From positions 1 through 42,363 of the IMG/VR virus record IMGVR_UViG_3300046517_000639: 42,363 nt of DNA, one strand, 5' to 3'. Each line of letters starts with the position of its first letter. Within the stretch, counting starts at the first letter, position 1. The notes beneath the pieces were generated by a model. The model did not search any database. It was not told the origin of the DNA and was given only the letters and a program-made list of their open reading frames with translations. This document shows, piece by piece, positions 4,476 through 42,363 of this stretch. A program made the translations under genes and the position numbers. The stretch is from a virus.

Positions 4476-4503
4476 TTGACTGATAGCAAAAACACGTTAT
4501 AGT
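4476..4503 (+). promoter_or_regulatory. Sigma70-type promoter for the rightward operon
   Basis: TTGACT at 4476-4481 and TATAGT at 4498-4503 with a 16-base spacer. The expected transcript start falls on or beside the A of the ATG at 4510, so the first gene would be leaderless. Confidence 0.65.
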
Positions 4504-4522
4504 GCTTTTATGGCTAAGTCAA
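4496..4522 (-). promoter_or_regulatory. Overlapping leftward promoter candidate
   Basis: On the minus strand, TTGACT (4522-4517) and TATAAC (4501-4496) are separated by 15 bases, slightly short. The two -10 boxes overlap and the two TTGACT boxes form an inverted repeat centred near 4499. This would serve the leftward late operon starting at 4458. Confidence 0.4.
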
Positions 4523-4943: not shown

Positions 4944-5146
4944 GCAACCTTTCTGATGCCCTGCGCGAGCAAGGCGTGTACTTTGGCAACGTGGATTACC
5001 TCGAGACAGCCATGCATGGGCTGGACTTGCAGCAGAAACACTTCGTGGAATCGATCATTATCGGTTGCATCGCGGCGCGTACCCCCAACGGTACATGGCA
5101 CCGCGTTGTGGACCTAGCTGTGAAGGAAGTACGAGGTGATGCATGA
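4940..5146 (+). CDS. Small protein (68 aa), function unknown
   Basis: MSNLSDALREQGVYFGNVDY begins this helical 68-aa protein. ATGA overlaps at both ends. No family recognised. Confidence 0.6.
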   Translation: MSNLSDALREQGVYFGNVDYLETAMHGLDLQQKHFVESIIIGCIAARTPNGTWHRVVDLAVKEVRGDA

Positions 5147-5244
5147 GCTACGAGGACGCACGAGAAGACATGGCCTACAGGTACGGAAGTGCAGTGGACT
5201 ACGAAGTTGAGGAAGAATCTGAGGAGGAATACGAAAATGAGTGA
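5143..5244 (+). CDS. Acidic miniprotein (33 aa)
   Basis: The 33-aa product is Glu/Tyr-rich (EVEEESEEEYENE at its end). ATGA overlap with the gene before, and an 8-base overlap with the next. Its 3' end carries the GAGGAGG that serves as ribosome site for the PEP-CTERM gene, so its translation may control that gene. Confidence 0.5.
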   Translation: MSYEDAREDMAYRYGSAVDYEVEEESEEEYENE

Positions 5245-5812
5245 AAACACGATTCTAGTCTGTTTGGCGGGGTATGCGTTTCTGGTAGTGCTCTTTATCG
5301 CGGAAGGGCTGTATAGCGTCTCTGAATGGCTCTGGAAGCGCTGGAAGGGCATTCTGGGAGTGGGTATGGTGCTGTTTCTGGCCGGCTCTGCCCGTGCCGA
5401 TACGCTCACCGAGAAACAGATTGCCCAGGAGATCAAACAGCAGTCTGCTTTGTCCTTGCGCCAGAATGTTGCTTCGTTCTGGGCCGATAATCTGCTGGCT
5501 GCCCAAGATCCATCTGTCTGCGATTACTGCTCATTTGAGCCTGATAGCTTGCAACTCTCTATCAATGCTGTACTTAAAGCCATTGGCATAGAGCAATCCG
5601 TGGGATTTACGTTCTGCAACCTAACCAACTGCATTCTGCCCAATAACCAAAGCATGATCGCTGTGGATGATCGAGTGATTACAGGCATCTCGCCGGCATT
5701 CATTAATTTTGGCGAAGTGCCAGTCTCTACGCCAGAGCCCATGACGATTGTATTGCTTTTCTGTGGTTTGCTCTATTTCTTCGCCATTTCTCGCAAAACG
5801 AGGCCGCAATGA
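5237..5812 (+). CDS. PEP-CTERM sorted envelope protein
   Basis: A 191-aa protein. A first hydrophobic helix covers about residues 8-25. A second, signal-like helix follows WLWKRWK and ends in a likely cleavage site SARA before DTLTEK at about residue 53. The middle part has C-x2-C (CDYC) and a second cysteine pair (FCNLTNC). The last 27 residues have the PEP-CTERM form: PEP at 166-168, a hydrophobic helix (MTIVLLFCGLLYFF), then Arg/Lys (SRKTR). In bacteria such tails are cut by an exosortase and target proteins to the outer surface. The start at 5237 has GAGGAGG upstream. A phage copy is unusual and implies that the host has an exosortase. The mature protein is not recognised. Confidence 0.75.
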   Translation: MSENTILVCLAGYAFLVVLFIAEGLYSVSEWLWKRWKGILGVGMVLFLAGSARADTLTEKQIAQEIKQQSALSLRQNVASFWADNLLAAQDPSVCDYCSFEPDSLQLSINAVLKAIGIEQSVGFTFCNLTNCILPNNQSMIAVDDRVITGISPAFINFGEVPVSTPEPMTIVLLFCGLLYFFAISRKTRPQ

Positions 5813-8100: not shown

Positions 8101-8742
8101 GTGTCTATGAAGCCTTACTATGACCATGCAGGGATTACGATTTATCACGGGGATTGCAGAGAGTTCGTAGCCGCAACAATGGCCTGTGTTACTGATCCAC
8201 CATACGGAATCGGCTACATGCATGGCGAAGGTGGGGGTTGTTTGGCAAAAAGCACTATATTTGCAGATATTCCAATAGCCAATGATGATGCGCCATTCGA
8301 CCCTGCGTTCCTTCTGTGGATGCAAGGTACGCTCATACTTTGGGGTGCAAATCACTACGCAAGCAAACTTCCTAATTCATCATGCTGGTTGGTATGGGAT
8401 AAACGCGACGGAATGTGTACGAATGACCAAGCAGATTGCGAGATGGCTTGGACAAACTTAGAAAGTCCCGCTCGACTCAAACGACATTATTGGAATGGAA
8501 TGCTCAAAGCCAGTGAGCGGGACGAACCCAGAGTACATCCAACGCAAAAACCAGTCGAAATCATGAAGTGGTGCATTGGATTTACAGACCCCGAAGAAAC
8601 TATCTATGACCCCTTCATGGGCAGCGGAACTACGCTACGCGCCGCCAAAGACCTTGGCCGCCGCGCCATCGGCATAGAAATCGAGGAAAAGTACTGCGAG
8701 ATTGCAGCCAAACGGCTCTCCCAGGAGGTGTTCCAATTCTAG
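8101..8742 (+). CDS. DNA methyltransferase 1 (N6-adenine/N4-cytosine, beta class)
   Basis: A 213-aa protein. Catalytic motif IV DPPY is at residues 32-35 and the SAM-binding motif DPFMGSGTT at 170-178. The order catalytic-then-SAM defines the beta class, which methylates adenine N6 or cytosine N4. The variable middle should set the target site. The GTG at 8101 has AGAAGGGA 6 bases upstream; an ATG at 8107 is possible. No restriction enzyme is adjacent, so it is an orphan, probably used to evade host restriction. It is a paralog of 9050-9679. Its 3' end contains AGGAGGTG, which appears to be the ribosome site of the next gene. Confidence 0.9.
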   Translation: MSMKPYYDHAGITIYHGDCREFVAATMACVTDPPYGIGYMHGEGGGCLAKSTIFADIPIANDDAPFDPAFLLWMQGTLILWGANHYASKLPNSSCWLVWDKRDGMCTNDQADCEMAWTNLESPARLKRHYWNGMLKASERDEPRVHPTQKPVEIMKWCIGFTDPEETIYDPFMGSGTTLRAAKDLGRRAIGIEIEEKYCEIAAKRLSQEVFQF

Positions 8743-9053
8743 ACCTAACTTACTTCCAGATAGCCGAGTGGCGCTTACTTGAATGGGAGCAACTCTACTC
8801 TCCGCTCAACGTCGCCGGCGAACTGCAAAAGATGAAGCAGTGGCTGGATGCCAACCCTCGCCGCCGCAAGAAGAACTACAACCGCTTCATCATTAACTGG
8901 CTGAACAAAGAGAGCGCACGAGTCGAACGCCAAGCCGTAGAGGCACGCAGCTATGCCAGAGTGGGCCACTACGAAGGCACCGGAGAGCACGCCTCGCCAG
9001 AGCGCGTACAGGAAGTGCTGGCTATGATTGAGAGACAGAGAGCGAAAAAGTGA
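8736..9053 (+). CDS. Replication-protein-like C-terminal module, probable AUU start (105 aa)
   Basis: From the ATG at 8832 the protein is 73 aa, but the 32 codons before it read sensibly (LDLTYFQIAEWRLLEWEQLY). They contain no ATG, GTG or TTG. A perfect AGGAGGTG at 8723-8730 lies 5 bases before an in-frame ATT at 8736. I therefore propose AUU initiation, overlapping the methyltransferase stop. The core MKQWLDANPRRRKKNY, then RFIINWLNK, resembles the C-terminal tail of phage replication-initiation or DnaD-like proteins. Its N-terminal winged helix would be missing here. GTGA overlap with methyltransferase 2. Confidence 0.6.
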   Translation: MLDLTYFQIAEWRLLEWEQLYSPLNVAGELQKMKQWLDANPRRRKKNYNRFIINWLNKESARVERQAVEARSYARVGHYEGTGEHASPERVQEVLAMIERQRAKK

Positions 9054-9679
9054 AGCCATATTATGAACATGCGGGAATCACGATTTACCACGGAGATTGC
9101 AGAGAAGTGCTGCCATCGCTGGAGCCTGTTGATTTGTTGCTGACCGACCCGCCATATGGAATCGGACGAGATGGCTCACGAGAAAGCACAGGAAGTCATG
9201 GTGGACGTAAGGCTTATGAGTTTTTGGGATGGGATGCGGAAATTCCTAGCAGGGAAACCTTTCGCGCAATGTTTGCGGCATCACGGGAACAAATTGTATG
9301 GGGAGGGAACTATTTCACAGCTTACTTACGCCCGACAATGGGATGGTTTGTTTGGGATAAAGGGCAGCGCATTGACCAATCGGACGGGGAACTTGCTTAT
9401 ACCTCTTTCGATAAAGCGCTGCGAATCTTTACTCTGAATCGAATGGCTATCGCTCAGGATGGAGCAGAACATCCAGCGCAAAAACCTGAAGAGCTTATGA
9501 AATGGTGCATGTTACAGGCAGGAGATGAGTTTCAGTTTATCCTCGACCCATTCATGGGCAGTGGCACCACGCTCCGAGCTGCGAAAGACTTAGGCCGCAA
9601 AGCAATCGGCATAGAAATCGAAGAAAAGTACTGTGAGATAGCAGCAAAGCGACTGAGTCAAGAAGTGCTCCAATTTTGA
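9050..9679 (+). CDS. DNA methyltransferase 2 (beta class, paralog)
   Basis: A 209-aa protein with GTG start. DPPY is at 33-36 and DPFMGSGTT at 166-174. The first 20 and last 45 residues are almost identical to methyltransferase 1 (MKPYYEHAGITIYHGDCRE; IGIEIEEKYCEIAAKRLSQE), while the middle differs (SHGGRKAYEFLGW; TAYLRPTMGWFVWDKG). Many differences in the shared ends are synonymous, so both copies look selected. It is likely to have a different target site. Orphan, with no partner endonuclease. Confidence 0.9.
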   Translation: MKPYYEHAGITIYHGDCREVLPSLEPVDLLLTDPPYGIGRDGSRESTGSHGGRKAYEFLGWDAEIPSRETFRAMFAASREQIVWGGNYFTAYLRPTMGWFVWDKGQRIDQSDGELAYTSFDKALRIFTLNRMAIAQDGAEHPAQKPEELMKWCMLQAGDEFQFILDPFMGSGTTLRAAKDLGRKAIGIEIEEKYCEIAAKRLSQEVLQF

Positions 9680-13685: not shown

Positions 13686-13696
13686 AAGGAGACTCA

Positions 13697-14074
13697 ATGA
13701 AGAAAGCATTTCCGGCCATGCTGGTAGCGATGCTGCTGATTGCGGGGTGTACGCCAGTTGAGCGTACTGCCTACAATACAGTAGTTGCAGCGAAGGCGTT
13801 TCTCGACAAGGAGAAACTATCCCATCCTGAATGCACAAACACTCCATCTTCGATAATTTGTGTCGATCTACAGAAAGCGGTAGCGGCAAAGGACGTGCTG
13901 ATTGACGCGATCACGGTTTATTGCTCCGGCCCTGACTTCAACGCTGGCGGTGCTTGCAATGCTCCGCAAAAGGGCACTGCGGCCTACGATCAGGCCGTAG
14001 CCAAGCTCAATGGGGCGATTGCTAACTGGAATCAAGTCTCTGCGGATCTGAAGGCTGTAACGGGAGGAAAGTGA
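13697..14074 (+). CDS. Phage-encoded lipoprotein (125 aa)
   Basis: AAAAGGAG lies 5 bases before the ATG. The N-terminus MKKAFPAMLVAMLLIAGC is a lipoprotein signal with a perfect lipobox, cleaved before C18. The mature part is helical with two cysteine pairs (HPECTNTPSSIICVD; YCSGPDFNAGGAC). It is probably anchored in the inner or outer membrane, in a block with other envelope proteins just before the lysis enzyme. Superinfection exclusion or a lysis accessory role are possibilities. Confidence 0.75.
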   Translation: MKKAFPAMLVAMLLIAGCTPVERTAYNTVVAAKAFLDKEKLSHPECTNTPSSIICVDLQKAVAAKDVLIDAITVYCSGPDFNAGGACNAPQKGTAAYDQAVAKLNGAIANWNQVSADLKAVTGGK

Positions 14075-17199: not shown

Positions 17200-17553
17200 T
17201 CAGACTTTGGGAGGATTATCTTCCACCTGCGTCTTGGCTACTGAAATTGCTTCCTTGGCCTTGTCCGTAGCTTCGGCAGCAACCTGTAACGTCTGCTGCA
17301 ACTGGTCTGGTGCGCCATGCAATTGCAGGAACTCGAACATCCGATAGCCACCTTGGAACAAGAACATTACGCCCATCAGCTTCAGCGTATTGCCTATGCT
17401 GTTAGAGAGATTGAATGTACCTGGAGCGATGCCGATACTGGTCAGGCCAGACACCATTGCCGCCGAGCCTCCACTGATGAATGATCGGAAGATGCCCAGC
17501 ATCCAGGTGGACCAATCATATGCGCGTGCGTTTACGACAGCAGTGAGTGTCAT
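17200..17553 (-). CDS. Holin-like protein (117 aa)
   Basis: AAGGAGAAAA precedes the ATG. NARAYDWSTWMLGIFRSFISGGSAAMVSGL, then FNLSNSIGNTLKLMGVMFLF and GGYRMFEFLQ, give two to three membrane-compatible segments. The C-terminal tail is helical and charged. I recall similar proteins (WxxGLxxxFISGGAGAV, LLxLMGVTF) annotated near phage lysis genes. It overlaps the end of the spike gene by 38 bases. Best holin candidate in the window, unproven. Confidence 0.55.
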   Translation of the reverse strand: MTLTAVVNARAYDWSTWMLGIFRSFISGGSAAMVSGLTSIGIAPGTFNLSNSIGNTLKLMGVMFLFQGGYRMFEFLQLHGAPDQLQQTLQVAAEATDKAKEAISVAKTQVEDNPPKV

Positions 17554-20416
17554 TTTTCTCCTTATAGCCTACAACCGCTCCAACTCTGAGTACCTTACGT
17601 CCCGTTGCTTGGCCCGTAAGAGGAACTGTGCGGGGACTGCCAAAAGCCGTATCTGTAAACACCAGATTGGCCGTTTTGCTGCCATTGGAAGTGGGGCTAA
17701 ACGTCACACTAACCGTGCATTGCGTTGCAGTGGCTTGTGTACCTGCACAAGTTGTAGTTTTGCTGAATTCACTGGCATTCGTTCCAGTTATGGTTATACC
17801 TAGCGTCACCGTCGAACCGCTGTTGTTGGAGTATGTCACAACCTGAGCAGCGCTCGATTTGTTCTTATTGATATTCCCGAAGTTGAGAGAGGCAGGCGAG
17901 ATAATCACTGGCGCCATGCCGGTTCCAGTCAAAACTGAGCAATCTGGCGAGTCTGGAGAATTGCTGCTCACGCAAGCCGTAGCCGTTTCTGTTGTTGTCG
18001 TTGTCGGCGTGAAAGCTATCATGACGGTGCAATTAGCTCCAGGAGCGACCACAAGGCTATTGGTGCAAGTTGTAGCTCCATCTATGACAAAATCAGCAGC
18101 ATTAGCCCCTGAGACAGTTACGGCATTTGAGCTGAACAAGATAAGGTTGGCGGTCCCGCTATTCATTACCGTAAACGGACTCTTGTTAGTTGTTCCTTCA
18201 GAAACAGGGTTCAAGAAAACAAGATTTGCCGGAGAGATATTCACTGCCGGCGCTAAGGCGATGACTGTACCAGTTGCTTGGTTTGAGTTGGCGCTGGTTC
18301 CAGCCGAATTAGACGATGCCACTACATAAAAATAGGTTCCCGCAGATAGGCCGGTATCGGCATAAGTGGTCGTAGTTGGCGAGGCTATGGTTGTATAGGG
18401 TCCACCGCTCACCGTTGCACGGCGAACCACATAATTAACAACCGTTCCCGTTGAAGCGTTCCAGGAAAGGTTAATAGTCGAGCCAGATACCGCCGCAGTG
18501 AGGCCAGTAGGCACGCTGGGAATGGATATAGCGTTGGTTCCCGCTCCTGTGAGTATGTCTGAACCATTTACCGTCCCTGTTACGCTCAAAGTGCCGGAAT
18601 AGCTGGTGACAGCCGTAGGAGTGAATTTAGCGAGCACTGTACAACTTGCGGAGACTGCAATCGTCCCGCTGGCAGCGCATTGCCCGCTTAGTCCGGTATT
18701 GCCATTGGTGAACACGCTGGGCGAAATTGCAATGCTTGAATAAGTCTCTGTCGCAGTTCCCACGTTCGATACGGTGATTGTCTTGGTTCCCGTGGTTCCA
18801 GTGTTCTGGTTCCCGAATGCCGCAGGGCTGGGGCTAAACGAAAGCAATGGAGCAGTGGTGCCTGTGGATTGAATAGCCCCAATATCCCATGCTCCAACTG
18901 ATGGCCGTGCATTGCCATTCAAATCCGTCTGGAGATAGGTGAGTGTCGCAAAGAGATTTAGCCCTTTATTCTTAGCGCAAGCATCGCCAGTAACCGGAGT
19001 AGCATTGTTAGGGAAAGCCCCGCCAATGAATCCGACATTGCAATTATTGCCATTCGTCTCCCGAGCAGGAGACAGTCCGCGCAACCCAGTCAGAGTGTAA
19101 TCCCCACCGAAAACATGCGCGATAGTGGGATAATTTAAGCTAGTCGTTGCGTACGTATCATAATCCCAGGAGGTAGACGAGGTGTACGATGCTATGCTGC
19201 CCGTATACACTGGCACCAATGAATTTCCGCAGCATAGGTTGGTAACGCCAAAGATGTTGTTGAGCACCGTAAGGTTGGTAACGATTCCGCGACTACTGTA
19301 AATGTTATAGCCGCCCGAATTGAGAAATGTATTGTTGGCTATGACGATATCATTCCACGTAGCGTTGCCGCTTCCATCCCCCTCGGCGTCAACGTTGCAG
19401 CCTCCAAATCCACCCGCAGAATCTAAAACGTTGTTATAAACCCTAATATGACCATTTGTGCTGCCAGCCGCTGCATTGTCCAGATAGCAGTTCTGGTCAT
19501 TGGAGCCATGAACATAATTACTATAGAGAGCGCAGTACTGAGCAGACTGACATTGAATAGAATCGGAATGTCCTGAACCGCTTACTCCGGTAACTTCATT
19601 GTGATAGATAGAGGCATTGTTGCCGACATCGATTCCATCTTCAAACAGATATTGGATAAAGTTGTCGTGGATTAGAGTATTGGTGAAGGTTGTTCCATTC
19701 AACGGCGGGAACGCTTTAATGCCCGTAGCGCAATACTGTTTCTGGGTATTGACGTGGTTAGGGTAGCATATAGTGGTTCCACCGCTAGTCGGCGCAGGGC
19801 CATGCACCCAGTTGTAACCAATTTCAAGAATGGCACTGGAACCTTGAGTGCCCATACCTCCGGCATAAAATCCACCCGTATAATCAGTAGTTCCTGTGAT
19901 CCCCGTTCCAAGGCATTCGATATGGAGAGCCTTCACATCATGCTCGCCGTTGTTCATGTAGCTACAGTACTTATCGACTCCAAGGTTGATAACGCGAATA
20001 CCATAGGTAGTGCTGCCGCCGAAGGCTGCGTTTCCAATTACACCGTCCACAGTGACATAGGCTTGACCGTTGAAATTAATTCCTGAACTAGACCCCTGAG
20101 TGTCAATGATTGCAGTTCCACCTCCACTGACTGAGACACGAACGACATTGCCAAGGGTGCCGGAAGATCCAATAGTCAATTGTCCGGTATAGGTGTCACC
20201 AGAAACCAGAAAGAGAGTGTCGCCGGCATGTACTGATCCCCATGCGATGCTAGATAATCCGCGCCAGCCGCCGACACCGCCAGGACTGCCGGCACAAGCT
20301 GCCGATGTACCGTCGCCGTTGTTGGCACAAGTGGTAGCCGAGCGCACGAACCAGTTCGTAGCGTTAGCCGCTGAAGCGCAGAATAAGAGGCCCATTGCTA
20401 GAAACAGACGTTTCAT
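17516..20416 (-). CDS. Exported-type beta-helix spike with Fn3 and HYDIN-like repeats
   Basis: A 966-aa protein. Residues 1-20 (MKRLFLAMGLLFCASAANA) are a clear Sec signal with an AxA site. Residues about 20-520 form a right-handed parallel beta helix of the pectate-lyase or tailspike type (repeats such as IVIANNTFLNSGGYNIYSS and LTVLNNIFG). Then come a HYDIN/ASPM-like domain (FSPSPAAFGNQNTGTTGTKT), a fibronectin III (PTGLTAAVSGSTINLSWNAS) and two more HYDIN-like domains (IIISPASLNFGNINKNKSS type). About 25 cysteines occur largely in pairs. Predicted to be a glycan-binding or -cleaving spike, built with domains typical of bacterial surface proteins. ATGA overlap with the gene before. Confidence 0.8.
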   Translation of the reverse strand: MKRLFLAMGLLFCASAANATNWFVRSATTCANNGDGTSAACAGSPGGVGGWRGLSSIAWGSVHAGDTLFLVSGDTYTGQLTIGSSGTLGNVVRVSVSGGGTAIIDTQGSSSGINFNGQAYVTVDGVIGNAAFGGSTTYGIRVINLGVDKYCSYMNNGEHDVKALHIECLGTGITGTTDYTGGFYAGGMGTQGSSAILEIGYNWVHGPAPTSGGTTICYPNHVNTQKQYCATGIKAFPPLNGTTFTNTLIHDNFIQYLFEDGIDVGNNASIYHNEVTGVSGSGHSDSIQCQSAQYCALYSNYVHGSNDQNCYLDNAAAGSTNGHIRVYNNVLDSAGGFGGCNVDAEGDGSGNATWNDIVIANNTFLNSGGYNIYSSRGIVTNLTVLNNIFGVTNLCCGNSLVPVYTGSIASYTSSTSWDYDTYATTSLNYPTIAHVFGGDYTLTGLRGLSPARETNGNNCNVGFIGGAFPNNATPVTGDACAKNKGLNLFATLTYLQTDLNGNARPSVGAWDIGAIQSTGTTAPLLSFSPSPAAFGNQNTGTTGTKTITVSNVGTATETYSSIAISPSVFTNGNTGLSGQCAASGTIAVSASCTVLAKFTPTAVTSYSGTLSVTGTVNGSDILTGAGTNAISIPSVPTGLTAAVSGSTINLSWNASTGTVVNYVVRRATVSGGPYTTIASPTTTTYADTGLSAGTYFYVVASSNSAGTSANSNQATGTVIALAPAVNISPANLVFLNPVSEGTTNKSPFTVMNSGTANLILFSSNAVTVSGANAADFVIDGATTCTNSLVVAPGANCTVMIAFTPTTTTTETATACVSSNSPDSPDCSVLTGTGMAPVIISPASLNFGNINKNKSSAAQVVTYSNNSGSTVTLGITITGTNASEFSKTTTCAGTQATATQCTVSVTFSPTSNGSKTANLVFTDTAFGSPRTVPLTGQATGRKVLRVGAVVGYKEKNDTHCCRKRTRI

Positions 20417-21798: not shown

Positions 21799-24146
21799 GA
21801 AAGCACCCCGTTCACGAATTTGGCGGTAGCAACTACGGTCACATTCATGGCCATGATGTCATTGGCGGTGACGGTAGTTGTTGTGAAGTCACCCAAGGAA
21901 GTGGAGTGTATCGCTGTACCGCTCGATATGCCTACACCACTGGTGTTGATTGAATTGCCGCTGGTCGGAATGGCTGTTCCTGTGGCTATCTTCCAGAACT
22001 TGACGGTGATCGTTCCAGCATCGATATTCAGATTGTAGGCATCGATTGTGCAGGCAAATGGCACGGTGATGTAATCAGTAGTCGTACTTGCAGCCGTTAG
22101 CGCTGAACCAGCCGGATCGCCAACTGTGAAGCTGATACCATGCTTGCTGTGCAATGTAGGCGAGGCCGAAGTACCGCCTAGTCCACCTGCCAACTGTACA
22201 AGTCCAGCCTGTCCGGTAGTCGCTAGAGGTACTTCTAAACTGATGCTGTCCGTGTTTCCGGCTGCGGAAGTTTGCACCACTAGATTCTGATTGTTAGCTC
22301 CAGCTGCTGGTGTCGTGGAATTGAAATTCTTGATGTTCTTGGTAGTTGCTGTGCCATTGACCTGTACTTGCAGATTGCGGCCATTGCCACCGCTGATGCT
22401 CGATGCGTTTAGCTCTGAAGGTGTCAGGTTGCGAATGATTGCCGCCGTGCCGGCACCAGCGTTGCCACTGTAGATATACCAGTAAGATTGTCCATTTGTG
22501 GGGATGGTCGTTCCTACATCGCTCAAATCTCCGTTTACCGTGGTGCTGGATTGGGCATAATGGCCAGCCGTCGCGCCATTGTCCATAATGACTGAGCAAA
22601 ATCCGATGATGCAGATTCCTGTAGAGCCTGTATTGCCTGGAGTTGCTCCATTCGCCGCTACTGCTACACCTAGTGGATTGTTGGTCGTGGACGATGCAAA
22701 CGGGCAGATAATGGCTTTGCCTGTTCCATCATCGCAGGCGAGTTTATTTAGCGTTGTTCCTGTAGCTGCATTGTTTGTCGCCCACCAGAGATAAGCACCG
22801 AGCTGGTTAACGTCATAGCCATTGTCGCAGCGTACCGCTGTAGTGCCATCATCCAATCCGCAACCATTGCCCACCGTCGCTGCACCAGTCCATTTCGTGT
22901 CGTGATTGGCCGTACCCGCTCCGGTGATCGTTCCACCGCCACCTCCAGCCGCCGCTATCGAGATGGCATAAGCCGCTGGTGTTAGCGTGATGTTTGTGCT
23001 GGCAGTCAGAGGAACTGGTGAGCAGCGGTCATAGTACGTTCCAGGTGCCGTAGGATCTGAGAAAATGGAACAACCAATTCCCTGCGATATGGTTAACGTA
23101 TTTGAACCAGTTGAGAAGAAAGTCGAAGTAGTGGCCGTGATCGTTGCCAGTCCCGCTCCATCATTCTTGATGAAAGTGAACCAGTTTCCATCAAAAGAAG
23201 TGGCCTCACTGGCTTGAGGAAGTGATAGGGCTTTAGCGCCAACGGCGGTCAAATAAAGAATCTCTCCTCGCTCTGTTCCATCGAAAGTATAAGAAGTAGC
23301 ACTGACGACAATCGGAGGTACGCCAGGAGTGCAGTTTACGAATGTTGGAGGAACTGCCGTGCTGTCCCAGCAGATCGTATCGCCCTCCTGAATATTGGTG
23401 ATTTGAGCCGTAATTACTGTTCCACCGCTGGAAGATGATGGAGGCCCAAGGTCAATCAGCGTCCATTTACCGCCAGATAGCAGGAATCCAGCAATGTCTC
23501 CACTCGTAACGCCACTTGGCACAAATGAAGGGATAATGCTATCGGCGCCTTGATTGCCATGATAATTCAAGCCTGTCGCATCGAAGCACAGTTGACCGCT
23601 AGAAGTTGCCGTACAGCCAGCTATTAAGGGGACTGTCATTCCCGAAGTCTCGCCTGATAGGTCAAGGCCAGGACCGCCACCAAAAGCTAGCGTGCCGTTA
23701 CCTTGATTGAAGCTCTTATTGGTGTTCTGGTCCGTTACTTGGTCTAGGCGTGGGAATCCTGGTGGAGGTGCTGGACCGGAATTGGTACTGCCCTGAGAAG
23801 TGTAAGTCAGCCCATCGTTCCAAATGTCTGCACCCTGCCCTGATTGCAAAACTAAGTTTGCTTGCCCATTAATCGTGCTAGTAGAAGTGATTGTGACCGT
23901 ACCAGCGCCGATATTCTTGACGCTGAACATGATTCCAGGCCCTGAACATGAGTCACTGGCTGCAAACAGCGTAGCCGCTACCGCACTGCCATTGTTGAAA
24001 GTGACTAGTTTTGTCGCATCGGTGCAAACGAATGTATAAGTAGTTCCAGTCTGGGCATTGACGCCAGAAAGCATGCGAGCCGTATTGGTCTGCGCTTGAG
24101 TACTGACTGCAAAGAAAAAGGCTAGGAATAGCAGCTTCTTTTTCAA
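21786..24146 (-). CDS. Exported-type fibre protein (786 aa)
   Basis: Start set at the TTG at 24146 (TTGA overlap, GGAG 8 bases upstream), which begins with a signal peptide LKKKLLFLAFFFAVSTQAQ. The frame from 24179 would put 11 odd residues before it. The mature protein is Thr/Gly/Ser-rich beta structure, with a segment like phage decoration domains (GNWFTFIKNDGAGLATITAT), a loop with DTICWDSTAVPPTFVNCTPG, and many paired cysteines. Probably a trimeric fibre. The C-terminus (FACTIDAYNLNIDAGTITVK) looks like a receptor-binding tip. Confidence 0.75.
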   Translation of the reverse strand: MKKKLLFLAFFFAVSTQAQTNTARMLSGVNAQTGTTYTFVCTDATKLVTFNNGSAVAATLFAASDSCSGPGIMFSVKNIGAGTVTITSTSTINGQANLVLQSGQGADIWNDGLTYTSQGSTNSGPAPPPGFPRLDQVTDQNTNKSFNQGNGTLAFGGGPGLDLSGETSGMTVPLIAGCTATSSGQLCFDATGLNYHGNQGADSIIPSFVPSGVTSGDIAGFLLSGGKWTLIDLGPPSSSSGGTVITAQITNIQEGDTICWDSTAVPPTFVNCTPGVPPIVVSATSYTFDGTERGEILYLTAVGAKALSLPQASEATSFDGNWFTFIKNDGAGLATITATTSTFFSTGSNTLTISQGIGCSIFSDPTAPGTYYDRCSPVPLTASTNITLTPAAYAISIAAAGGGGGTITGAGTANHDTKWTGAATVGNGCGLDDGTTAVRCDNGYDVNQLGAYLWWATNNAATGTTLNKLACDDGTGKAIICPFASSTTNNPLGVAVAANGATPGNTGSTGICIIGFCSVIMDNGATAGHYAQSSTTVNGDLSDVGTTIPTNGQSYWYIYSGNAGAGTAAIIRNLTPSELNASSISGGNGRNLQVQVNGTATTKNIKNFNSTTPAAGANNQNLVVQTSAAGNTDSISLEVPLATTGQAGLVQLAGGLGGTSASPTLHSKHGISFTVGDPAGSALTAASTTTDYITVPFACTIDAYNLNIDAGTITVKFWKIATGTAIPTSGNSINTSGVGISSGTAIHSTSLGDFTTTTVTANDIMAMNVTVVATAKFVNGVLSCTE

Positions 24147-25333
24147 GGATGGACTCCAGTGCAGTTGATCTGCGTCCAATGAATAGGCGAAGAACCTACA
24201 GTAACAGTCCTGACGGCCACAGAAACAGTATTCTGTGAAGCAATTTGCAGATTGGCTCTACCCGTAGTTGGATTTCCACCGTCCACAGCCGTTACTCCAC
24301 TGCAAGTCACAGAGTAATTGGCATCTGCGAAAACCACCGGCCATGCAATCGAGTTGTCGCAAGTGTCAAAGGTAGAGCCTCCAGTTGTGCAAGGCGTCCC
24401 TGTAACGACACAGCCCACCGCGCAATATGTCACTGCTTGAATCTTGCTTGCTCCGATGCTGCAACTTAGTGTAGTCAGGCCGGAATTGGCGTCCAGGCAG
24501 ACATTAGTACCAGCTCCACCAGTAATCATGCCTGCCGTCATCAAATGATTGTCTGAGCCCTGTGTAGCAACTTGCGGAGTGCCGCCGGCAAGCGTGAAGC
24601 TATTCGCCAGTAACGTAGTCACCGAGGCCGTATTGGGAGTGGTTGAGCCTAGAGGGCAGGGAATCGCCCATGTGCAGCCATTGAGCAAACCTGCATTCAG
24701 GTTATTGACTTGCGTGGTGCTGGAGATGACGAAGGGAGGCGTGCCTGTTGCCAGCGTCGAAGTGATTTGGCCGCTAAACGTTCCCGTAGTGGAGGAAAAG
24801 CCGTTACTAAAACTAGGTACACCAGAAAATACAGGAGTCCCAGTAAACGTTCCATCTAGGATGCCTCCACCACTCATGTTGTTTGGCCCTGAGGATGTGA
24901 AGCCGGAGTTGAATGTCACGCTGGAATTGAAGATAGCCGTATTGTTCCAGGTGTTTTGTCCTGTCCAAATATTGTTGAGTCCTAGGAGCGTATTATTGGC
25001 CGACGAAATATTATCCTCGCTCCAAAGCGTGACTCCCGCAGAGGTTTGCATGATGAATTTGTAGGCAACTGGAGTCATCCATACATCTGCCCTTCCAGCC
25101 GCATCCATGACGATTGGATTTGTATTCGGAATAACCCCAGCGGAATCACGATAAGTAAGTAGTGGAGTTGTAGTTCCTGCCGAATAGCTGAATAGTTTGC
25201 AACCTACACAGGGCCTTCCGTTATTATCGAAAAATTGTGACTTCGTGAATGGATAAAGGGCTACTTGAGCACTGGAAACAGAAGAAAAGACTAGAAAAAA
25301 CAAGAAGATTATAAGAAAATGGCTGAGCAGCAA
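24143..25333 (-). CDS. Tail fibre with signal-like N-terminus (ORF open to 25891)
   Basis: The body starts near 25333: a TTG followed by LLSHFLIIFLFFLVFSSVSS, a signal peptide ending before AQVALYPFTKSQFFDNNG. Next comes the domain GCKLFSYSAGTTTPLLTYRD...NPIVMDAAGRADVWM...YKFIMQ, a known N-terminal domain of phage tail fibres. Thr/Ser beta repeats and several cysteine pairs follow. The frame stays open upstream to an ATG at 25891 that makes the usual ATGA junction with the ejection gene and encodes MKKLLLLLALL, another signal-like start. An endonuclease gene on the other strand lies between. The present start is uncertain. Confidence 0.7.
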   Translation of the reverse strand: MLLSHFLIIFLFFLVFSSVSSAQVALYPFTKSQFFDNNGRPCVGCKLFSYSAGTTTPLLTYRDSAGVIPNTNPIVMDAAGRADVWMTPVAYKFIMQTSAGVTLWSEDNISSANNTLLGLNNIWTGQNTWNNTAIFNSSVTFNSGFTSSGPNNMSGGGILDGTFTGTPVFSGVPSFSNGFSSTTGTFSGQITSTLATGTPPFVISSTTQVNNLNAGLLNGCTWAIPCPLGSTTPNTASVTTLLANSFTLAGGTPQVATQGSDNHLMTAGMITGGAGTNVCLDANSGLTTLSCSIGASKIQAVTYCAVGCVVTGTPCTTGGSTFDTCDNSIAWPVVFADANYSVTCSGVTAVDGGNPTTGRANLQIASQNTVSVAVRTVTVGSSPIHWTQINCTGVHP

Positions 25334-25354
25334 ATTCCTATGTGAGGTAGGAAC

Positions 25355-25873
25355 ATGCCAAAACGTCGGATGCGCCGACATTCTGTTGCTCAGCCGATTG
25401 ACCAGCCTTACAGATTCATCCCGCTTACGCAAGAGCAAAACGCTATTGTTGATACTAGAGACTTCGATTGGATTTCGCAGTGGAATTGGTCTGCCCGTTG
25501 GTGTCCAGATACTAAAAGTTTTTACGCATTTCGACACGGAAACATAATGATGCATCATGTAATCCTTGGTATTCGCTGCGAAGTTGACCACAAAAATGGG
25601 GATACCTTGGATAACAGAAGAACAAACCTTCGCCAATGCACGCACTCTCAAAACATTCAAAATCAACCTGGAAACCGCCTTAATACCAGCGGATACAAGG
25701 GGATTTACTTCCATGAGTGTGGGAAGTGGCAAGCCAAAATCACCTGCAATGGGAAGCGAATGCACTTGGGACTTTTCTCCACCAAAGAAGAAGCGGCAAG
25801 GGCTTATGATCGCAAAGCTAAAGAACTGCATGGTGATTTTGCATGGCTGAATTTTCCTGAGCAAAGCCAGTAG
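25355..25873 (+). CDS. HNH-AP2 homing-type endonuclease inserted in the late operon
   Basis: A 172-aa protein. An N-terminal segment (YRFIPLTQEQNAIVDTRDFD) leads to the HNH core with H67/H68, H79 (CEVDHKNGDTLDNRRTNLR), N91 and N100, then an AP2 DNA-binding domain at 112-167 (SGYKGIYFHECGKWQAKI, then LGLFSTKEEAARAYDRKA). Free-standing genes of this type spread by cutting unoccupied sites in related phages. It has its own ribosome site (GTAGGAAC) but opposes the late operon. It sits just inside the ATGA start of the fibre gene and is codon-aligned with an open antisense frame. Confidence 0.85.
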   Translation: MPKRRMRRHSVAQPIDQPYRFIPLTQEQNAIVDTRDFDWISQWNWSARWCPDTKSFYAFRHGNIMMHHVILGIRCEVDHKNGDTLDNRRTNLRQCTHSQNIQNQPGNRLNTSGYKGIYFHECGKWQAKITCNGKRMHLGLFSTKEEAARAYDRKAKELHGDFAWLNFPEQSQ

Positions 25874-25887
25874 CAGAAGTAGTTTCT

Positions 25888-26769
25888 TCATTCTGTAAAC
25901 TTCTTTCCCATGCGCTGCTGCAAGGTAGTTCTCTTGTTAACTGAGCCTTGCGCGGCATGATACATACCTGCATCACTTGCTTGCTGCTGCAAAACTCTCA
26001 TCTGCTGCTGATAGGCGGCAAACTCTTCTGGAGTGGCAACCAATGGATTAAGAGGCTTCGGCATTCCTGCTGCTTTCTTAGCTATAAATTCTTGCTTGGC
26101 TTGCTCAAACAAGTCTGCTTTAGCCTGTTCTTTGGCTAATTTTGCTTGCTGGATTTCATCCATTGTTTTCAATCGGCCCATCTGTGAAAGTTCCTGCTGA
26201 CGTTGTTTTTCTAATTGGGCCAGATTCTTAGCAAATACGTTATGCGCTTCTTGTACATCTTGATCAACTCCGAAAACTCTCCTAAGAGCGTACTCTCCAC
26301 CTTTTTCCACTGGATGCGCCACAGCCTTACCCAAAGCCGTTAGTTCACCCTCTGGGGTTAGGAGCTTATTGGCAATTATTCCTTTGGCGAAGTTATAAGT
26401 GCCTTCTGCTAATCCTCCACCAATTAGGCTGCCTACATCACCGCTGACTTCCTGACCGAGCTCTCCAGCACCAGAGATTCCAGCAGCAGTGCTACCAACA
26501 AGTGAACCAGCAGTGCCACCAACTAAAGCCCTTGCCGCAGAGGCCGGTGATGCACCAGCAGCACCAAGAGAACCAGCAAATAAACCTGTTTTTGCGCCTT
26601 CATATGCTGCCCTACCTGGAGACATGCCCTCTGCTGGATTGGGCAGATTGCGAATTCTGGCATTAGGAACAAATTGCGAAGAACTAGGAGCAGCCTGCTG
26701 AGCAGCGCTTTCCTCTACTGGAGTCCAAGCCGAAGTATCCTCTACGGGAGTCCAGCCAGTATTGCTCAT
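25888..26769 (-). CDS. Ejection (injection) protein, gp16 position
   Basis: A 293-aa protein starting at the ATGA overlap (MSNTGWTPVEDTSAWTPVEE, a tandem WTPVE repeat). A Gly/Ala/Ser-rich segment (TGLFAGSLGAAGASPASAAR to LIGGGLAEG) could insert in membranes. The rest is coiled coil (LEKQRQQELSQM, AKLAKEQAKADLFEQAKQEF). It is the third of three genes in the P22 order gp7-gp20-gp16, whose products leave the head with DNA and form a channel across the envelope. Confidence 0.7.
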   Translation of the reverse strand: MSNTGWTPVEDTSAWTPVEESAAQQAAPSSSQFVPNARIRNLPNPAEGMSPGRAAYEGAKTGLFAGSLGAAGASPASAARALVGGTAGSLVGSTAAGISGAGELGQEVSGDVGSLIGGGLAEGTYNFAKGIIANKLLTPEGELTALGKAVAHPVEKGGEYALRRVFGVDQDVQEAHNVFAKNLAQLEKQRQQELSQMGRLKTMDEIQQAKLAKEQAKADLFEQAKQEFIAKKAAGMPKPLNPLVATPEEFAAYQQQMRVLQQQASDAGMYHAAQGSVNKRTTLQQRMGKKFTE

Positions 26770-42236: not shown

Positions 42237-42363
42237 TAAGCTCCATAAGCACTCATTCCATTGACAAGAGAAAGAGCCAACGTGGATTCATTCGTAACTG
42301 TATCCATCTGCTGGTTAAATCCTGCGCCACCAGGAGGAGTTTTGGCATCGTCACGCATCATGT
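42237..42363. repeat. Terminal direct repeat, right copy
   Basis: Exact second copy of bases 1-127. It duplicates part of the tail gene coding sequence and should be removed before counting genes. Confidence 0.95.

Follow-up and report, generated by a model that had tools for sequence, protein, structure and literature searches.

A phage gene for a PEP-CTERM-type protein, a candidate cargo for the host exosortase

The gene, its operon and its genome

The gene under study encodes a protein of 191 residues with a PEP-CTERM-type tail and lies in the left part of the window (the whole stretch of viral DNA analysed, 42,363 nucleotides; Table 1). Its ATG is at 5237, with an AGGAGG about 9 nt 5′ of it, and its stop codon occupies 5810-5812. 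PEP-CTERM genes tend to form single-gene operons after a large intergenic region, whereas this gene belongs to a closely packed rightward operon that begins at about position 4510 and overlaps its neighbours on both sides. The small ORFs upstream also accompany related genes in other phages; a homologue of the 33-aa ORF precedes the gene of phage G003, and a copy of the 68-aa ORF with 69% identity adjoins that of G010. The best promoter-like site upstream of the operon is only suggestive, since the count of such sites is not clearly above the shuffled expectation. The operon also contains Erf, NinG and methyltransferase genes, while the head genes beside it are transcribed leftward. This opposition suggests that the PEP-CTERM gene is expressed early, and expression early in infection is probable, although the timing is a guess.

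Table 1. Features at the PEP-CTERM locus (window coordinates)
Feature	Position	Strand	Remarks
Best promoter-like site 5′ of the rightward operon	4476..4503	+	TTGACT-16-TATAGT, 10/12
Small conserved upstream ORF, 68 aa	4940..5146	+	Alignment A5
Small upstream ORF, 33 aa	5143..5244	+	From sequence; 3′ codons overlap the PEP-CTERM start (ATGAGTGA)
PEP-CTERM-type protein gene	5237..5812	+	191 aa; ORF with Shine-Dalgarno sequence
N-terminal export region, residues 1-54	5237..5398	+	From sequence; cleavage-like site kept among relatives
Passenger body, residues 55-165	5399..5731	+	111 aa, four Cys; homologous in six relatives (alignment A7)
PEP-CTERM tail	5729..5809	+	PEP 166-168, hydrophobic helix 169-184, R/K 186-189
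Following ORF, 67 aa	5809..6012	+	From sequence; overlaps the PEP-CTERM stop (ATGA)

The window, a virus record, bears an exact 127-base direct repeat at its ends (1-127 and 42237-42363), and so most likely represents a complete genome of some 42.2 kb with overlapping ends. The repeat and a P22-type portal gene (PF16510, 430 bits) agree with a preliminary description of this DNA, which had called the protein phage-encoded. Besides the portal, the genome codes for a terminase, a major head protein, the Erf annealing protein, NinG and two methyltransferase-like ORFs.

Several other features of the genome were noted. One long leftward ORF extends past both window ends and spans the junction. Two adjacent plus-strand ORFs (8101-8742 and 9050-9679) each match the C-terminal portion of N6_N4 methyltransferases (PF01555) and may have arisen by duplication. 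On the minus strand, a GroES-like co-chaperonin (PF00166; 39607-39924) adjoins the portal gene, and Phage DSL-LC05 likewise has GroES beside its portal. By eye, one ORF (25355-25873, plus strand) looks like a homing endonuclease of the HNH-AP2 type. It is antisense to a long ORF (24143-25891, minus strand), the first 207 residues of which are unmatched in G003; this tail gene probably has its real start further inside the ORF.

Layout of the protein and its matches to sorting-tag models

The PEP-CTERM tail, proposed to be a sorting tag (Haft et al. 2006, PMC1569441), is found on proteins with an N-terminal signal, a variable body free of hydrophobic helices and a C-terminus made of PEP, a helix of about 14 residues and a basic cluster near the end (PMC1569441). 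The product of the phage gene has a comparable layout, with a signal-like N-terminus. Its export region consists of a first hydrophobic helix (residues ~5-24), a KRWK loop, a second hydrophobic stretch and the cleavage-like site SARA (residues 51-54) followed by D. The additional first helix is atypical for signal peptides; in the relatives L066, G010 and G007 the signal peptides look short and ordinary by eye. Between signal and tail there is no hydrophobic helix (maximal 17-residue mean 1.24). PEP-CTERM bodies tend to be low in Cys and raised in Ser, Thr and Asn, whereas this body contains 3.6% Cys, along with 9.9% Ser, 7.2% Asn and 5.4% Thr; those of G008, L069 and G010 are without Cys. The body gave no significant match in Pfam, PHROG, PADLOC or PDB, and structure prediction was too poor for searching (pLDDT 50 for the body, 7 rows; 45 for the whole protein, 5 rows). 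After the PEP, within VSTPEP, the tail continues with MTIVLLFCGLLYFFAI and then SRKTRPQ; the best 14-residue Kyte-Doolittle mean of the helix is 2.81, and the basic residues are R186, K187 and R189. Thus the coordinates, PEP motif, helix, R/K cluster and internal signal-like segment with SARA that the preliminary description had reported were all found.

The HMM search proposed in that description does return matches, the absence of which was to count against its reading. TIGR02595 (NCBIfam PEP_CTERM), a model of only 24 positions, matched residues 165-187 of the 191, ending inside the roughly 10 C-terminal residues where PEP-CTERM domains stop, with 14.0 bits and E = 0.072 in hmmscan, below its cut-off of 16 bits; in the genome-level search the same stretch scored 17.7 bits, above the cut-off. 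The window score alone is not significant, because weak TIGR02595 matches occurred in 12 of 14 control genomes, two of them above the cut-off. Both this background and the low single-protein score would suit a chance resemblance, or a host gene that hitch-hikes without use to the phage. However, the evidence from the related phages does not fit with either. The protein of G007 passes both TIGR02595 (17.6 against 16 bits) and PF07589 (21.7 against 20.7); at genome level TIGR02595 exceeds its cut-off in G000, G001, G007, G008, G010 and G013 (18.8 bits in the last), and at E values of up to 10 seven of the nine members match it. All 12 NCBIfam families matched by members within this limit are PEP-CTERM, exosortase-dependent or VPxxxP-CTERM sorting models. 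The control phages, on the other hand, were empty: TIGR02595 matched none of nine known phages, nor any of five fragments that bear a portal gene and lie outside the group, nor one Acidobacteriota plasmid.

A structural filter (EP or ES, helix and basic end, in ORFs of at least 100 aa) was passed by 9 of 843 ORFs in the phage group, by none of 254 in three control phages and by 8 of 42,150 shuffled proteins; because it was devised after the proteins were seen, its counts speak to rarity and do not amount to an independent test. Eight of the nine group ORFs that passed also have the N-terminal feature, and these come from eight different phage records.

Relatives, body exchange and selection

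Further phages were recruited via a small lipoprotein of the group, and L066 and L069 via alignment of the body. The lipoprotein (GCTPVERTAYN..., window 13694-14071, plus strand) is another envelope protein, 85% identical in G003 and 68% in G002, and, like the PEP-CTERM gene, is a marker of this phage group. Nine phage records contain PEP-CTERM-type proteins (G000, G001, G002 with protein L004, G003, G007, G008, G010, G012 with L066 and G013 with L069), but none was found in G009 (33 kb, perhaps a fragment) or G011. The search for other viral PEP-CTERM proteins, suggested in the preliminary description, therefore succeeded among related phage records, at least eight of which carry such a protein, but not in the INPHARED collection of known phages, where tblastn with the window, L069, G007 and G003 proteins gave no relative. 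Megablast of window positions 1-24900 found no near phage either.

The nine proteins have a common layout: a hydrophobic export stretch, a small-x-small site before D, a body of 109-128 aa without hydrophobic helix, EP or ES, a helix (14-residue means 2.6-3.05) and basic residues. The cleavage-like site is present in all nine despite differing N-termini (SARA, AKA, ARA, SRG, SKA, AQA, SRA and AYA). L003 of G001 is 94% identical to the window protein overall, while L004 of G002 shares the body (68%) and differs at the N-terminus. G002 has early-region genes and tail-fibre repeats, but no head genes, in common with the window, so the PEP-CTERM gene occurs in structurally different phages. The tail-fibre protein itself, predicted at 17516-20416 on the minus strand, has HYDIN/ASH-type Ig repeats, and its C-terminal half is common to G003 (74%) and G002 (50%).

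By their bodies, seven of the nine records are homologous and two have the signal and tail around another body. The body aligns among L003, L004, L066, L043, L069 and L044, but is not alignable in G003 and G007. The case of G003 is telling at the DNA level, as the two phages are close (portal 88% identical, with synteny). The A1 profile matches the G003 protein only at 1-58 and 156-190, and in each stretch of 30 bases 16-27 are identical over 5140-5409, 9-14 over 5410-5709 and 21-24 over 5710-5769; the DNA for signal and tail is similar, and that between them is at background. The body thus appears to have been swapped between these phages, or to have diverged beyond recognition, with signal and tail kept. 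The tails of G003 and L004 end in the same ten residues, an indication that these phages have recombined with one another.

The tails themselves vary: VSTPEPMTIVLLFCGLLYFFAISRKTRPQ in the window, VSTLEPASVALLGCGLLYFLVLRLPKRKL in L004, VSTGEPGVFLLVAAGYLVLLATRRGK in L066, VPTPEPAVWAMVLVGLLGLLVIRKEARS in L069, VSTPEPSTIVLCLAGLLLAFYAKKSKEQAA in G007 and DPTPEPMTIVLICCGLLYFLVLRLPKRKL in G003. Three relatives have replaced PEP, two with LEP or GEP and one with PES, and in G008 and G010 the tail extends 40 and 33 residues past EP/ES. These departures would be understandable if the helix were a plain membrane anchor, as EP, helix and basic residues resemble any stop-transfer anchor; the protein would then be bitopic, spanning the inner membrane and facing the periplasm, would never be cut by exosortase, and might, for example, block DNA injection by another phage. 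We find this less likely, since it is the sequence xTPEP, rather than hydrophobicity alone, that is kept in six of the nine proteins, also behind unrelated bodies, and the models matched were always those of sorting tags.

The window gene and L003 differ by silent changes at 35 codons and by changes of residue at 11 (dN 0.034, dS 0.361), giving a dN/dS of about 0.09, and the PEP-CTERM gene is under purifying selection. For the body alone dN is 0.027 and dS 0.467. Such selection, together with the conserved layout in independent phages, led us to reject a chance motif, a decaying gene or hitch-hiking; with recurrence in nine phage records, one without shared head genes, a useless gene or chance likeness seems barely credible. 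Purifying selection, the common layout and the filter counts make the tail of the window protein more than chance, and support a genuine PEP-CTERM-type tail conserved among related phages.

A conserved body also bears on a decoy function, in which the phage would flood the host exosortase with substrate, leaving host PEP-CTERM proteins and matrix undisplayed and thereby helping release or spread. The non-canonical tails of some members could bind unprocessed, and the gene, being in a tight operon, may be expressed early. However, a decoy has no need for a body under strong purifying selection, and we hold this explanation to be improbable.

A possible route to the cell surface

Exosortase (PF09721) was absent from the nine phage records searched, so processing would need an exosortase of the host. 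Tyrosine and serine recombinases (PF00589, PF00239) were likewise absent from 11 phage records searched, which makes lysogenic conversion less likely than use in lytic growth. By analogy with established families, the phage would make the protein from the rightward operon, probably early in infection; the host Sec pathway would export it, and signal peptidase I would cut after SARA, at residue 54. The PEP-CTERM helix would hold the protein in the inner membrane, where host exosortase would recognise the tail and process it at PEP. The body would then be placed on the outer surface or into the matrix. This would alter the infected cell's surface, and other phages might, for example, be kept from adsorbing or injecting.

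We consider it fairly probable that the gene product is such an envelope protein, Sec-exported and sorted by host exosortase, with a change of the infected-cell surface as its likeliest job. Against this stand the hmmscan score below the curated cut-off, the LEP, GEP and PES relatives, the extra N-terminal helix and the Cys-rich body. As to the role, for an envelope protein that is small and changes fast we would guess superinfection exclusion or surface remodelling first. The roles put forward in the preliminary description, blocking of receptors or of other phages and alteration of the matrix, are likewise putative. A broader proposal, which we put forward only tentatively, is that an apparently non-lysogenic phage lineage uses host exosortase as a general display device, exchanging bodies between signal and PEP-CTERM tail, so that infected cells would display a protein of the phage's choice on their surface or in the matrix; the likeliest purpose would be to keep out competing phages.

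The likeness to the PEP-CTERM/exosortase (EpsH) system (PMC1569441; TIGR02595, PF07589, PF09721) extends from signal-like N-terminus, helix-free variable body, PEP, helix and basic end to the rapid turnover of bodies; unlike that system, the proteins here are phage-encoded without an exosortase of their own, and include a Cys-rich body and LEP, GEP or PES relatives. In Nostoc, exosortase deletion alters which PEP-CTERM proteins reach the exoproteome (PMC12188702). MYXO-CTERM and myxosortase (PMC11980579) also rely on a C-terminal tag of three parts that sorts proteins to the cell surface, but with a different motif (an invariant Cys) and enzyme. The proposed role has parallels in Ltp of Streptococcus thermophilus phages (PMC3952083) and SieA of P22 (PMC10883804), small phage-made envelope proteins; Ltp is a surface lipoprotein and SieA is expressed from the P22 prophage, both from temperate phages, whereas the present protein has a C-terminal sorting tag and its phage no detected integrase. 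Viral genes annotated with an exosortase-type C-terminus are known from hot-spring viruses, as TIGR03118 proteins (PMC11003980). These belong to another family and appear, with a putative exosortase-interaction tail (n = 13), in a list of horizontally acquired genes, without analysis of tail or lineage (PMC11003980). A search of the open-access literature by title and abstract found no paper on phage PEP-CTERM proteins.

Contig scans of bacterial genomes with the protein family or the tail-fibre alignment, which required short exact peptide patterns and so missed distant relatives, found no relatives or hosts, and searching plasmids for the lipoprotein and the tail fibre produced no match. An Acidobacteriota host, suspected from the HYDIN/ASH-type tail-fibre repeats, was dropped, as no search supported it.

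PEP-CTERM proteins have so far been described as bacterial products, and phage-made ones would mean that phages can plug into the sorting route. They would restrict the host to exosortase-bearing bacteria, and would offer small natural substrates and a test of exosortase action on foreign cargo. If their role is exclusion, they would represent a novel route to the outer surface of infected diderm cells.
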